Positions 42,964 to 48,567 of a stretch of 64,000 nt of DNA are shown in pieces. This DNA is from a virus: positions 284,583 to 348,582 of IMG/VR virus record IMGVR_UViG_3300027770_000025; one strand, written 5' to 3'. The translations under genes were made by a program, and so were the position numbers. The stretch's first letter is position 1; each line of letters starts with the position of its first letter. The notes beneath the pieces were generated by a model. That model was not told the origin of the DNA and searched no databases. It saw only the letters and a list, made by a program, of their open reading frames with translations.

Positions 42964-43596
42964 TTAATGTTTCCCCTCCATCTTTTTTTTGATCCTACCC
43001 CTTGCTCTTCTTATTCGAGTAGCGATAGATCTTTTCTTAATGCCATACTTTTCTGCTATGTCCTTGTATTTCATACCATTAATCTCTCTGTCAATCATAA
43101 TATCTCTATAGGTATCAGGTAAAGATCTTATTTCATCTAAAACGGACTCATAAACAGAGTCAATGGTATTTTCCTCGCTAAAGAATCCATATGCTGGATC
43201 ATCCTCAATAGTATAAAATCCACCTATTTCTCCTATTGTGTTTTTAGAAGAAAGGTACTCTAAATCACCATCCTCATGAGCTATTAATCTCTTTCTAGAT
43301 TTCAGAAGTAATAGCGATTCATTTCTTGCTATGTTATAACACCATGTGGAAAAATTACCTCTCTCCATATCATATTGATCTATCTTTAGCCATATCTTGG
43401 ACATGGTATTAAGAAAAGAATCCTCTGCTAATTCCATATTTTTTAGAATCAAAAAACAATGGTTGGATACACCAGGTTTAAGTCTGTTAAATAAATCACT
43501 GAATGACTTGTCTGTTTTATTTAGAATGAAATCCTCTGCTAATGTCTGAATGTTTGTCTCTTTAATCTCCTTTACTTCTCTGTGTTCTTTTTGCAT
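42964..43596 (-). CDS. ECF-type RNA polymerase sigma factor
   Basis: The protein has 210 residues. Region 2 is visible as MSKIWLKIDQYDMERGNFST then WCYNIARNE (about 65-95). Region 4 is the helix-turn-helix part SLPDTYRDIMIDREINGMKY followed by IAEKYGIKKRSIATRIRRAR. A loop of about 40 residues lies between, and the tail is basic. It is a group 4 sigma, distinct from the gp55-type factor at 35832. It belongs to an early operon driven by the promoter at 44221 and may serve the middle or late gene set. Phages with two sigma factors are rare. Confidence 0.85.
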   Translation of the reverse strand: MQKEHREVKEIKETNIQTLAEDFILNKTDKSFSDLFNRLKPGVSNHCFLILKNMELAEDSFLNTMSKIWLKIDQYDMERGNFSTWCYNIARNESLLLLKSRKRLIAHEDGDLEYLSSKNTIGEIGGFYTIEDDPAYGFFSEENTIDSVYESVLDEIRSLPDTYRDIMIDREINGMKYKDIAEKYGIKKRSIATRIRRARGRIKKKMEGKH

Positions 43597-43598
43597 AT

Positions 43599-44204
43599 TT
43601 AGATTTGGTCAAATTGGTTAATTTTATATAATTCTATTCCAGCCTCTATTAGAAATGGAAGTGAATCTGGTTTTCTATAAACTTCTGAAAAAACTACTCT
43701 TTTTATTCCCGATTGTATTATCAATTTAGAACATTCAAAGCAGGGGGAAAGAGTTACATATATTGTAGATCCATCGGAACTTTGGGTACTCTTTGCAAGT
43801 TTTGTTATCGCGTTTGCTTCCGCATGAAGGACGTAGGGTAATGTAGCCATATTCTCATCCTCACAGATATTAGGAAATCCAGTTGGTGATCCATTATAGC
43901 CATCAGAAATTATTGATTTATCCTTTACCATTAAGCATCCCACCTGCATTCTTTTACAGTGAGAATTTTTTCCCCATGTATTAGCCATTTGTAAATAGAT
44001 AAGATCGTTTTTCATTGCCTTTGAATTTTCCCCATATAATGGGCTTTTTTGAATGGCATCGGAATGATCCCAGGAAATGTCAAAAGTTTTTCCTATTTTT
44101 TTGACGCTCCAATTATTTATGCTAAGGAAATCTGGATTGGAGAAATCAAAATCTTCTGAAACTATTTCTCGTCCTGAATAATGTGATAGTATAGATAACT
44201 CCAT
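43599..44204 (-). CDS. cd: dCMP deaminase
   Basis: The protein has the zinc cytidine-deaminase signature: YVLHAEANAI (His127 and catalytic Glu129) and LSPCFECSKLI (Cys155, Cys158). The N-terminal part (DLIYLQMANTWGKNSHCKR, about 67-85) matches the T4 Cd family, including the extra Cys/His zinc site. It converts dCMP to dUMP for thymidylate synthesis. It heads the early operon; the sigma factor follows 2 bases later. An N-terminal extension of about 60 residues is unusual. Confidence 0.9.
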   Translation of the reverse strand: MELSILSHYSGREIVSEDFDFSNPDFLSINNWSVKKIGKTFDISWDHSDAIQKSPLYGENSKAMKNDLIYLQMANTWGKNSHCKRMQVGCLMVKDKSIISDGYNGSPTGFPNICEDENMATLPYVLHAEANAITKLAKSTQSSDGSTIYVTLSPCFECSKLIIQSGIKRVVFSEVYRKPDSLPFLIEAGIELYKINQFDQI

Positions 44205-44268: not shown

Positions 44269-46023
44269 TTAGATCCTTCTAGAATCTGGTCTAAATGGTT
44301 GATCTATTGCTGAAACTGTTAACGGTCCTTCAAGAAGTCCTGCTATTCTGGTAAGTGCATTTTTTATATCCTGCATATCACTATTACTTTCTAATCCATT
44401 ATTACCAGATGCTGGTGTTTCTGATTTTTTATCGGTTCCAGATTTATCTGCAGCTGATTTCATTAAATCTGCGGATGGCTTTGTTTCTGCTGCCTTTGTT
44501 TCCTCTGGTGCTTCCTTATCTTTAGCTGCTTCTTTCTTTGCTAAAGGGTTAAGCTTTTTAACGTTATTTACTAAAGAAGGTGTTTCACCTATTTTAGATG
44601 CTGCCGAGGTTTCAGTAATCTTTTTACCGAGATCAGTTTTAGTTTCTTCCTTCTTTGAAAAGACCCCCTTTAATCCACCTTTCTTATCTATAACCCCTTT
44701 AAGAGCTCCGAGACCTTTTTTAGCAAATGGACTTGCAGCGCCAAGACTTTCCGTTGCTTTATCTGCAGCGGAAAATAAAGCATCCTCTGCGCCTCCTCCT
44801 ATTTTAGAAAGTAACGAAGATACTTTAGTCTCTTTCTTAACATCCTCTGCGCCTCCTCCTATTTTAGAAAGTAGCGAAGATCCTTTAGTCTCTTTCTTAG
44901 GACCCTCCTCAGCACTCTTTTCTTTTTTCCTCTTCTTAGGATTTACTACTTCTTCAGATTTTTTAAGTTCATCGGGTTTCTCTTTAGTTCCAGAGTCTAG
45001 AGTATCCGGTAGATTTTCTAATTTAGAATCGCTCTTATCCGATTTACCTAAGACTTGCTCTGCTGATTTATCCTCCGATTTTTCCTTGCTAATAAGTGAT
45101 TGCGTAGCTAGAAGTTTAGCTTTAGCTACCGCTAGCGAATTATAATAATCTTTATCCTTAGATAAATTCTTTAATATAGCTACCCATGTATTACTCCTAT
45201 TATTTAGATCCTCCCCACTCAATTTATTTTTTATCTCGAGATCTAAAGCCTCTTTCTCAATCTTAGTAATCTCACCATCTATTCCATCCTTTCCTTTACC
45301 GATTAACGAATATAGGGTTTCTACGATCTCACCTGTAGATTTTCTTGAATTATCGTCTTTAGCATTATCCTGAGCTTCTTCATACTTCTCAAGCAATCCA
45401 CTTAAATTCATATTTATGCCCTCGGAATCTATTAATCCCGGATCACTTGGATTACCAAAAAAGTTTAGACTACCTTCTTTGCTATTCTTTAAAAGAGAAC
45501 TAAACTCGGGAACGTTTTTTAATCCTTCCATTAGATCCTTAACGTTAATTGGGATAACACCAGCACCCTTTGGTAACTTAACTACCTCCGGACCATTTTC
45601 ACCAACCAAATATTTGCCTTCTTTCTTAGCAACCCCACCTTCCTGAAATGCTTTAATTATTCCCTTTAATCCCCCCGCGATATTACTGAAATCCTTATTT
45701 GGCCCTTCTCCGCCTTTAGAAACAGATCCTTTTGCCATTTCTGCTATTTTTCCCATAAGTGGGCCTTTCTCGCCAAGTAGTCCACTGATAGCTTTGGTAA
45801 GATCCTTTATTGCTCCTTCACCCTTCTCACTTTCTTTAGGATTAGCCGTAGAAGCCTTATTAGAGGTCGTAGCTGACTCCTTTTCGCTTTTTGTAGATTT
45901 ATCCGTTGATGATATAAGGGACTCTGTAGCGGAAGTATTTTTCTTAATAGACTCAGCTAGAGAATTTATATTCCTGCCAAGGTCGGCTATTTGGGAAAAT
46001 AATTTTTGATTAGGATCTGCCAT
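44269..46023 (-). CDS. Tape measure candidate, 584 aa
   Basis: Residues about 129-158 read GGVAKKEGKYLVGENGPEVV followed by KLPKGAGVIP, a motif common in tail tape-measure proteins. The length (584) is close to T4 gp29 (590), whose length sets tail length. The rest is Ser/Lys/Glu/Ala-rich with low complexity and a 20-residue tandem repeat (KKETKxSSLLSKIGGGAED). Position supports the call: tail tubes, then a gp26-like gene with a probable frameshift extension, then this gene. It lacks the hydrophobic segments often found in tape measures, and its motif lies nearer the N-terminus than usual, so the call is moderate. Confidence 0.5.
   Translation of the reverse strand: MADPNQKLFSQIADLGRNINSLAESIKKNTSATESLISSTDKSTKSEKESATTSNKASTANPKESEKGEGAIKDLTKAISGLLGEKGPLMGKIAEMAKGSVSKGGEGPNKDFSNIAGGLKGIIKAFQEGGVAKKEGKYLVGENGPEVVKLPKGAGVIPINVKDLMEGLKNVPEFSSLLKNSKEGSLNFFGNPSDPGLIDSEGINMNLSGLLEKYEEAQDNAKDDNSRKSTGEIVETLYSLIGKGKDGIDGEITKIEKEALDLEIKNKLSGEDLNNRSNTWVAILKNLSKDKDYYNSLAVAKAKLLATQSLISKEKSEDKSAEQVLGKSDKSDSKLENLPDTLDSGTKEKPDELKKSEEVVNPKKRKKEKSAEEGPKKETKGSSLLSKIGGGAEDVKKETKVSSLLSKIGGGAEDALFSAADKATESLGAASPFAKKGLGALKGVIDKKGGLKGVFSKKEETKTDLGKKITETSAASKIGETPSLVNNVKKLNPLAKKEAAKDKEAPEETKAAETKPSADLMKSAADKSGTDKKSETPASGNNGLESNSDMQDIKNALTRIAGLLEGPLTVSAIDQPFRPDSRRI
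44781..44900 (-). repeat. Two tandem 60-bp units in the tape measure candidate
   Basis: 44781-44840 and 44841-44900 are almost identical and encode two copies of a 20-residue unit ending SSLLSKIGGGAED. Because the unit is in frame, slippage would change protein length without loss of the frame. Confidence 0.85.
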
Positions 46024-46061: not shown

Positions 46062-46235
46062 TTACTTACCAAAACTAAACAACTCTTTGACCCCGCTTTT
46101 AGCTTTCGCCTCTGCATTTTCAACTTCTATGGCATCATTGAGCTTATCTATCCATATCTGATATTCGTAGAAAGGTATGCTTTCTATCCAATCAGGATCC
46201 AGACTATGCTCCTTCCATAATCTAAACTTGATATC
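46062..46235 (-). CDS. +1 frame extension of the gp26-like gene (tail chaperone-type)
   Basis: This 57-codon frame (DIKFRLWKEHSLDPDWIESI, then PFYEYQIWIDKLN and a basic end) has no start codon. The zero-frame gene ends in CTT TGA. Skipping one T after CTT gives exactly this frame. CUU UGA is the known +1 site of bacterial prfB. The extension ends 38 bases before the tape measure gene. This is the place where tail assembly chaperone frameshifts (lambda G/GT) occur in many phages, and P-x-W, YEY and IWIxxLN look like a conserved short domain. The joint product would be 422 residues. Confidence 0.65.
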   Translation of the reverse strand, partial: DIKFRLWKEHSLDPDWIESIPFYEYQIWIDKLNDAIEVENAEAKAKSGVKELFSFGK

Positions 46236-47331
46236 AAAGAAGTTCTCTAAAGATATCTGAAATAACGAAAAGAGATCTGATCCCGTAGGGAAAGTTTATT
46301 CTAGCGGTGACCTCCATATCACCGCATACTGGGCACTTTTGTTTTACCTCTAGCTTCGTTCCCACTTTGATTTTCTGAGCAAGCTCAAAATACAAGCTAA
46401 ATTCTTCTTTGGTCCAATAATCGCTTTCTCTCATTCTGGAAAGGATCCTTTGGAAATTTAGATCCCTCCATTCGCTAAACATGAAAGGCGCTATATCAAG
46501 AAATCCATCATCAATATCAATATTTTTCTTAGCACATTCTGTTATGAATGAAGTTATTTCCTGGGTTACCCCTATACTAGGAATGTATAGTTCAACAGTC
46601 TTATCAAGTTTTTTAATGGTAAAAACAAAACCTCTGGTCTCTTCACTATAATACTTAGCAATATTTTCGTCAAGTTCATAAGAACTTAGTACGCCAGTTC
46701 TGAGTTCTATACCTTCATTGAAGGGACATTCTGGTGTTTGGTTGCATGATTTTTGCGGCTTAAGGATAATAGAGTTCTCGCCTTTAACGAACGTAAGATC
46801 TCTAATAGCCATGATTATAAAGAATCTATCTTCTTGCTTAAGATCTTTATAAGAAACCACCCCTTCTCCCGAAAATTCCATCCGAGAGCATCGATCTATT
46901 ATGTGAGTTAATTTTTCCTCTATGTCCAATTGATCATCTTCATCGATTGTGGAGAAATGTCTTATCTCTCTAACCTCAGCAGCTCTAATAGCAATTTTAG
47001 TTCCGTCCGGATAATATTTACCTTCCGATGGTAATATCCCAACCGGTATATTTTTCCAACCCATCTCTAATGATATAGGTTTATTTACACTTTGAGCTTT
47101 ACCTAAGGAAGCTAATTGTTGATCATATTGTATCTGATCGATCTTTGGTTGAACCGGTTGGGGAATAGCCTGCTGAACTTGTTGTTGAATTTGTTCAGTT
47201 CTAGCGGATAGCTCCTGTACCTGCGACACCACATTGGTTTCCTTTGCAATAGGCTGGGGATCATCATATTCTATACCCCCCGCAATTTCCTTTCTCTTAA
47301 GAATCTCTTCTGGTGAAATATTATTATCCAT
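46234..47331 (-). CDS. 26: T4 gp26-type baseplate/tail protein, with +1 frameshift site at its stop
   Basis: The 365-residue protein has a Gln/Pro-rich first 100 residues, then the T4-baseplate (gp26) block: LPSEGKYYPDGTKIAIRAAE, EVREIRHFSTIDEDD and an ITECAKKNIDIDD region. A zinc-type set of cysteines is visible (CNQTPEC near residue 200 and CPVCG near the end). It is longer than gp26 (208 residues). It lies between the tubes and the tape measure candidate and ends in CTTCTTTGA, where a +1 slip opens a further 57 codons. Confidence 0.7.
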   Translation of the reverse strand: MDNNISPEEILKRKEIAGGIEYDDPQPIAKETNVVSQVQELSARTEQIQQQVQQAIPQPVQPKIDQIQYDQQLASLGKAQSVNKPISLEMGWKNIPVGILPSEGKYYPDGTKIAIRAAEVREIRHFSTIDEDDQLDIEEKLTHIIDRCSRMEFSGEGVVSYKDLKQEDRFFIIMAIRDLTFVKGENSIILKPQKSCNQTPECPFNEGIELRTGVLSSYELDENIAKYYSEETRGFVFTIKKLDKTVELYIPSIGVTQEITSFITECAKKNIDIDDGFLDIAPFMFSEWRDLNFQRILSRMRESDYWTKEEFSLYFELAQKIKVGTKLEVKQKCPVCGDMEVTARINFPYGIRSLFVISDIFRELL

Positions 47332-47419: not shown

Positions 47420-47995
47420 TTACATAAACAAATCTTCCCAGTAATCACATATCCATGATGTGGTTACAGTGTAGATAGCTGGATTTTCGTAATCTAACTG
47501 CATATCATTAATGGCAGTACTGATAAAGCAAGAAGGTATTCTAATTCTTCTAAAAACATCCCCTCTTTTATTAAATATCGAGATAACCATAGAACCAACA
47601 TAATCGCTTTTAATACCCATCGCACCTGTTAGTGGATTGTATATTAAGTCGCTCCATTGTCTAAGTATCTTATAAACACTCATTGAATTTACGTCATTTA
47701 AGTTAACCTCAAATTCCATACTTAATGTCATATCACTAGTAGTAGGCTCACCTGCAGCATATCTTCTTTGAGCAAACTTATAAGTTTGTTCAATGTTCCC
47801 GTTTGCTAAAATATCTACGGCCAAACCAGTTATAGATTTAACCTGCTGAGCTAAAATTGATTCCCCTTTAAAAGTCGTGCTAGCATCTACTATTCCCGAC
47901 GGTGGCGTGATCAAAACCTCAAATTGGTTAAGATATACCGGTTCGTAGTTGTTTATCGCGGCTTTAGAGTTTGTATAATGTGGTAAACCTGCCAT
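47420..47995 (-). CDS. 19: Tail tube protein, gp19-like, second copy
   Basis: The 191-residue protein shares most blocks with its upstream paralogue: MAGLPHYTNSKAAINNYEPVY (in part), LNQFEV, KFA.R.YA, VNLND.NSM.V.K.LRQWSD, YNPLTGAMG, FNK.GDVFRRI and the ending DYWEDLF. The final DYWE is also the end of T4 gp19. It forms the inner tube of the contractile tail. A longer loop near residues 38-50 distinguishes it from the other copy. Confidence 0.9.
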   Translation of the reverse strand: MAGLPHYTNSKAAINNYEPVYLNQFEVLITPPSGIVDASTTFKGESILAQQVKSITGLAVDILANGNIEQTYKFAQRRYAAGEPTTSDMTLSMEFEVNLNDVNSMSVYKILRQWSDLIYNPLTGAMGIKSDYVGSMVISIFNKRGDVFRRIRIPSCFISTAINDMQLDYENPAIYTVTTSWICDYWEDLFM

Positions 47996-48012
47996 TTATT
48001 TTTTTTATTTTT

Positions 48013-48567
48013 TTATAAGAATAAATCCTCCCAGTAATCAACTGCCCAAGTCATATCATCTATTTTAAATATATCAGTTGAGGTGTAATTAAGATTCATT
48101 TCACTTATTGCCTTAGTGGGATAGCAGTCTCTGCATGTTATTCTTCTGAAAACGTCTCCTTGTTTATTAAAGATAGAAACTACGATAGTACCTGTATAGT
48201 CATTCTTAAGACCCATTGCTCCTGTTAATGGATTATAGATCAAATCACTCCATTGTCTCAATGTTTTAAAAACGTACATTGAGTTGTCATCATTTAAGTT
48301 TACTGTGAAGCTTAAACTTAAATCCAGATAGGTATTATCAGGTTTAGGTCCAGCATAATTTCTTTTAGCAAACTTATACTTTTGAGTAGTTAGTCCTGGG
48401 TTTTTATCTAAGGTAAGTCCACCAACCTTTGACACGTGCTGAAGAAGTATCTCTCCACCCGCAACAGCAGAAGGAGGTATAACAGTAACCTCAAACTGGT
48501 TCAGATAAACAGGTTCGTATTTGTTTATTGCTGATAATGAATTTTGATAATGTGATAGTCCTGCCAT
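48013..48567 (-). CDS. 19: Tail tube protein, gp19-like, first copy
   Basis: The 184-residue protein is a gp19-type tail tube paralogue of 47420-47995, with LNQFEVTVIPPSAVAGG at the start and VDYWEDLFL at the end. Spacing between the copies is 17 bases. The pair may build a mixed tube or one may form an end ring. It follows the sheath gene directly, in the T4 gene order. Confidence 0.9.
   Translation of the reverse strand: MAGLSHYQNSLSAINKYEPVYLNQFEVTVIPPSAVAGGEILLQHVSKVGGLTLDKNPGLTTQKYKFAKRNYAGPKPDNTYLDLSLSFTVNLNDDNSMYVFKTLRQWSDLIYNPLTGAMGLKNDYTGTIVVSIFNKQGDVFRRITCRDCYPTKAISEMNLNYTSTDIFKIDDMTWAVDYWEDLFL

Follow-up and report, generated by a model that had tools for sequence, protein, structure and literature searches.

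A T4-type tail assembly chaperone gene with a candidate programmed frameshift into the net +1 frame in a jumbo-phage lineage

The locus described here raises the question of how a phage translates an open frame that has no start codon of its own. It lies in the window, a stretch of 64,000 nucleotides at the end of a virus record 348,582 bases long, where a gp26-like open reading frame (ORF; 47331..46234, minus strand) ends in GAA CTT CTT TGA and the +1 frame, one base past that end, remains open for 57 codons up to a TAA at 46064-46062. At the window locus, no ATG, GTG or TTG precedes the conserved extension domain in the +1 frame, and 38 bases separate the end of the extension from the next ORF, which begins at 46023. 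These features had been described in an initial annotation of the DNA and were found correct on re-reading; its proposal that a gp26-like protein encoded at the tail-chaperone position carries a recoded, selected extension is likewise supported, by synonymous differences and by frame conservation. The reading preferred here, to which we assign a probability of roughly 0.78, is that of a T4-type tail assembly chaperone gene in which programmed frameshifting after a conserved Phe codon, TTC, gives a long form that carries the gp51 domain.

The locus and its predicted products

The features of the locus are as follows.

47420..47995, minus strand: tail tube protein, the upstream neighbour (phrog_45 and phrog_3629)
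46234..47331, minus strand: gp26-like zero-frame ORF, 365 aa, predicted short product and short form of the tail assembly chaperone (ORF, profile and fold matches)
46309..46314, minus strand: GAG GTC codons, 42 nt 5' of c1, Shine-Dalgarno (SD)-like, with near-invariant wobble bases, beyond the SD reach of the ribosome
46267..46275, minus strand: candidate shift site TCT CTT TTC, comprising codons c0 (46275-46273), c1 (46272-46270) and c2 (46269-46267); zero-frame constraint stops at c2
46237..46266, minus strand: two-frame overlap, VISDIFRELL in the zero frame and LFQISLENFF in the +1 frame, with constraint on the +1 frame (codon tables of 138 sequences, parsimony)
46062..46265, minus strand: extension in the net +1 frame, TTA (Leu) through TAA, predicted gp51 C-terminal domain (phrog_634, profile-profile match, synonymous differences)
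46234..46236, minus strand: zero-frame stop TGA, not conserved as CUU UGA
44269..46023, minus strand: downstream ORF of 584 aa, a tape-measure candidate by position only

Neither Pfam nor PHROG yields a match for the 584-aa ORF. The chaperone gene is preceded by two tail tube paralogues in tandem (47420-48567), the second of them at 48013..48567, and the tail block is followed directly by a sigma-70-like factor (42964-43596) and a dCMP deaminase (43599-44204).

The short form matches phrog_36717 at 1e-23 and, weakly, the baseplate hub family phrog_150; its sequence match to the gp26 family is weak, the window protein scoring 14.3 bits against PF12322 (T4_baseplate), for which the curated cut-off is 24.5, while its homologue PAU gp93 scores 33.9 bits, above the Pfam cut-off. 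The predicted fold (pLDDT 87) matches T4-like baseplate hub proteins with E about 1e-5 to 1e-10, and sequence and model together point to a gp26-like short product. The extension matches phrog_634 with E 2.2e-4 and, in a profile-profile comparison (hhalign), the gp51-like domain of T4-like phages at 96.9%, E = 1.5e-10, matches by which it is recognized as the C-terminal domain of T4 gp51. Modelled alone, it forms three helices at low confidence (pLDDT 69.5). At this locus, PDB searches by sequence and by fold gave nothing significant. In T4 itself, gp26 and gp51 are two paralogous genes on opposite strands whose products both match Pfam T4_baseplate and phrog_150, the additional domain being fused in frame in gp51. 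gp51 also matches phrog_634 at its C-terminus, and the short and long forms of T4 are therefore the products of two genes.

Conservation of the extension and position of the frame change

An IMG/VR scan found 131 relatives, of which 80 were kept, and a GenBank search yielded 29 phage records, including Lak, PAU, PTm1, MA9V and MaF61. The alignment consists of 138 distinct sequences in three clades (51 in the window clade, 53 in its sister clade A3 and 34 in the L085 clade) together with six GenBank relatives. All 138 distinct family sequences that could be aligned retain the extension frame, as do the GenBank phages PAU, PTm1, MA9V-2 and MaF61, and wherever a window-clade relative has sequence long enough, its +1 frame is open. 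Past the stop, of the codon differences that involve a single base, 70% leave the +1-frame amino acid unchanged, compared with 17% expected and with 11-15% in the other two frames. An open, startless +1 extension of this kind is far beyond chance, and the pattern of differences indicates that it is a recoded C-terminal extension under selection.

Several relatives carry the domain in other forms. The genes annotated as PAU gp94, PTm1 ORF-023, MA9V2_060 and MaF61 ORF156 (L090:2435-2572, L089:2399-2521, L088:2366-2542 and L092:2339-2509, respectively) have starts scattered within the conserved extension and appear to be truncated gene calls, that is, pieces of the extension. In one sequence (L279:2503-2860), the zero frame ends normally and the gp51-like domain follows as an independent ORF that begins with an ATG (MKAVAGISVDKKSILSMFKINLENFF...), so that a split gene takes the place of the frameshift there. 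In the Lak phages (L083, L086) a related domain, bearing an N-terminal insertion, is retained in the +1 frame; none of the slip models fits ATA TTC AAC, the sequence at their site, and their zero frame ends in UUU UAA.

The frame in which the gene is constrained changes well before the stop codon. Approximately ten codons upstream of TGA the constraint is already on the +1 frame, and the zero-frame replacements found there (R/G, D/N, V/L, E/K, S/P/Q) are silent in that frame. On the 138-taxon tree, the parsimony changes at the three zero-frame codon positions amount to 106/74/257 for c-12 to c1 and to 105/23/41 for c3 to c12, with 0/0/4 at c2 and 18/0/0 at c3; the wobble position thus switches (chi-square 80.6, p = 3e-18) exactly at the boundary between c2, the Phe codon TTC at 46269-46267, and c3. 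Because the counts switch at this point, constraint is assigned to the zero frame up to and including c2 and to the +1 frame from c3 onward, and all 138 sequences have a Leu codon, TTR, as their first +1 codon. The constraint switch, as read from these codon changes, maps to NNU NUU UUC, 33 nt upstream of CUU UGA.

Direction of the shift and competing explanations

The change of frame would be brought about by ribosomal slippage. The majority of ribosomes would continue to TGA and produce the 365-aa gp26-like short form, and a fraction would shift just past the Phe codon at 46269-46267 to produce the long form with the gp51 C-terminal domain. We lean slightly towards a -2 slip, in which both tRNAs would move backward, from CUU to CUC and from UUC to UUU, giving a long form of 423 aa (...GIRSLF-SLFQISLENFFDIKFRLW...) with the junction peptide SLFSLFQISLENFFDIK. 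By analogy with lambda G/GT, the two forms would serve as chaperones, the short form coating the tape measure and the long form recruiting tube subunits.

Re-pairing of both tRNAs after a -2 slip is clean at the window site, TCT CTT TTC, and re-pairing of at least one tRNA is available in 137 of 144 sequences (123 at the Phe codon and 14 with CUN after NCU), compared with 86 of 144 in which a +1 slip, from CUU or UUU to UUU, is possible. Seven of the 144 fit neither (GCT TTA, GCT ATG, AGT TTA or TCT TTC before TTY). A U stands immediately before c1 in 140 of 144 sequences, against 47% U-ending codons among the Ser, Ala and Gly codons of these genes, and it is kept even though the c0 codon itself varies (Ser, Ala, Gly, His, Tyr, Asn). 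This U counts in favour of -2 because a forward slip gives no reason for it. A fuller version of the -2 reading is offered tentatively and may well not hold as a whole: the shift would occur at NNU NUN UUY with only one of the two tRNAs re-pairing well, some members (GCT TTA, GCT ATG, AGT TTA) would shift without a known slippery sequence, the direction would have evolved from -1 to -2, and the tRNA-Phe-centred rule would be one undescribed for bacteria.

Two other candidates were rejected. U UUU C cannot be a slip site common to all, being absent in 21 of 53 A3-clade members, and a hop from UUY to a UUY 7 nt further on fails in PAU, PTm1, L037/38 and L074, in addition to which the intervening Leu codon is constrained as coding. 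No covariation was found that would point to an RNA stimulator, either for an upstream hairpin (GAGGTC/GATCTC) or for downstream folds; fold z-scores are near 0 for short upstream pieces, and the z of -2.9 for the fold of a 170-nt window is not shared by the consensus. An SD-like GGAGG 9 nt upstream is present in 23 of 51 window-clade members and absent from the window itself, and Rfam gave one sub-threshold match, to an archaeal snoRNA, which was taken as chance. The near-invariance of the GAG GTC wobble bases spans clades with about 30% protein identity and extends to PAU and LR756500.

Net +1 recoding at the same place could also proceed forward, with the P-site Leu tRNA passing from CUU to UUU or with one base skipped after UUC, which we consider unlikely. 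The +1 frame can be reached by a +1 or a -2 shift, and known access to it is mostly by +1 shifts, the commonest route (PMC5009743). The re-pairing of CUU to UUU is that of prfB, and it is possible in 51 of 51 window-clade sequences; however, it is impossible in 34 members with AUU and in those with CTC, CTG, CTA or TTA, the A-site codon UUC is neither slow nor a stop, and the selection on U before c1 is left without explanation. The two directions predict different proteins: a forward shift gives a long form one residue shorter (SLSLFQ or SLFLFQ) than the -2 product, which has an extra Phe (SLFSLFQ), and its junction peptides would be SLSLFQISLENFFDIK for +1 at CUU and SLFLFQISLENFFDIK for one base skipped after UUC. 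The +1 direction given in the initial annotation holds for the net frame, and as a forward slip it is probably wrong.

Production of the extension as a separate small protein from a near-cognate AUA/AUH start (AUG in the L085 clade) inside the gp26-like gene, without frameshifting, is improbable. In the +1 frame, the codon at c6 reads ATA in window-clade sequences, ATA, ATC or ATT in A3 and ATG in 34 of 34 L085-clade members, genuine ATG starts exist in L279 and in cyanophages, so that a separate small protein is workable in some lineages, and the T4 annotation includes a shorter internal product, 26'. Against this, +1-frame constraint is already evident at the Leu-Phe-Gln codons upstream of c6, the c6 position is CTT in PAU and GTC in MaF61, T4-like relatives have their -1 slippery site at the place of the constraint switch, and T4 gp51 is an in-frame fusion. 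In the L085 clade (L085, L087, L215-L278), the +1 ATG stands at a conserved-Ile position, and a stand-alone start is possible there besides the shift.

The +1 slip at CUU UGA at the ORF end proposed in the initial annotation (422 aa, ...SDIFRELLDIKFRLW..., junction ELLDIK) is very improbable, although the sequence is common: the last codon and stop of the 51 window-clade members are CTT TGA in 45, TTT TGA in 3, ATT TGA in 1, AAT TAA in 1 and CCT TAA in 1, and 42 of 53 A3 members have CTT TAA. The CUU-stop is missing in L030, L037-L040, L045 and L047 and in all 34 L085-clade members, which end in GAA TAA or AAA TAA. Since the last codon and stop vary while the extension frame stays, CUU UGA is not the shift site, and the last ten codons before the stop are already +1-constrained. 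Such conservation as the CUU-stop shows follows from the +1 codons at this place, TTC TTT GAT/AAA. That the site should vary while the frame is kept had been named in advance as contradicting the proposal, and the alignment gives exactly this, with the extension retained. The accompanying analogy with prfB extends to the presence of CUU UGA at the window ORF end, which is not the place of the shift; zero-frame coding is not kept to the stop, no SD sequence lies 3 nt upstream and CUU UGA is not conserved. A broken gene or assembly error, that is, a functionless frameshift mutation, can practically be dismissed, as nothing beyond the split ORF itself suggests it and the same arrangement occurs in 138 distinct sequences from many metagenomes under strong purifying selection.

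Relation to T4-like phages and other recoded genes

T4-like tail chaperone genes were reportedly described by Vladimirov, Gautam and Davidson in 2022. In P-SSM2, S-PM2, KVP40, HTVC008M, Cr30 and phiM12, the gene is homologous to that of the window, and a gp51-type domain follows gp26 in the -1 frame after an in-phase U UUU UUC or U UUU UUU; the shift falls at the corresponding pair of codons, ahead of a short overlap, but these phages have U UUU UUN and the domain in the -1 frame, whereas the window lineage has NNU NUN UUY and the domain in the net +1 frame. The window sequence, U CUU UUC with its extension in the +1 frame, does not conform to the -1 heptamer X XXY YYZ. The heptamer U UUU UUN is in phase in 160 of 160 T4-like loci, as U UUU UUC in 80 of 80 cyanophage loci and as U UUU UUC (58), U UUU UUU (16) or U UUU UUA (6) in 80 wider T4-like loci. 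The domain is without a start codon within 14 codons in 45 of the 74 wider loci examined. Cyanophages have an ATG after the heptamer, such that both a shift and a free start are possible there. In six T4-like loci (L372, L374, L375, L386, L397 and L414), U UUU UUA is followed one codon on by a TAG stop.

T4 stands as an exception to the tail-chaperone frameshift rule in a widely cited review (PMC5009743). Two papers citing Vladimirov and colleagues report a short gene alongside a fused long gene in some T4-like phages and poly-T slippery sites in others (PMC10885494, PMC12846349), and on these accounts the T4-like gp26/gp51 pair made via -1 slippage is already known. The suggestion in the initial annotation that such a site seemed not to be described therefore holds only in part, since those accounts mention T4-like phages with frameshifted gp26/gp51-type chaperones; what appears to be new is a large jumbo-phage lineage that reaches the extension in the net +1 frame.

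The closest comparison is with the T4 hub chaperones gp26 and gp51 (PF12322, phrog_150, phrog_634), in which the short form is likewise gp26 and the long form adds the gp51 C-terminal domain; T4 differs in using two paralogous genes, unlike the one gene with recoding proposed for the window. Lambda G/GT is similar in that a short and an extended form come from one gene beside the tail tube gene, and the window gene shares with genes of this type a conserved startless extension in another frame and an adjoining tail tube gene. The lambda shift is -1, unlike the net +1 of the window lineage, and lambda-type chaperones gave no sequence match or significant fold match to the window protein (HK97 chaperone 2OB9 at E 9.7). 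In arteriviruses, the slip occurs on a Phe codon, like that proposed for the window. Phage Mu and arterivirus nsp2TF also gain access to the +1 frame by -2 (PMC5009743), in unrelated genes, and differ from the window lineage, in which the P-site pairing varies.

For annotation, the extension corrects the gene calls PAU gp94, PTm1 ORF-023, MA9V2_060 and MaF61 ORF156. More broadly, a single gene in the T4 superfamily would yield both gp26-like and gp51-like forms, and this pair of proteins could be compared across three arrangements (-1 slip, net +1 slip, duplicated genes), which would make a change of frameshift direction in evolution directly testable.
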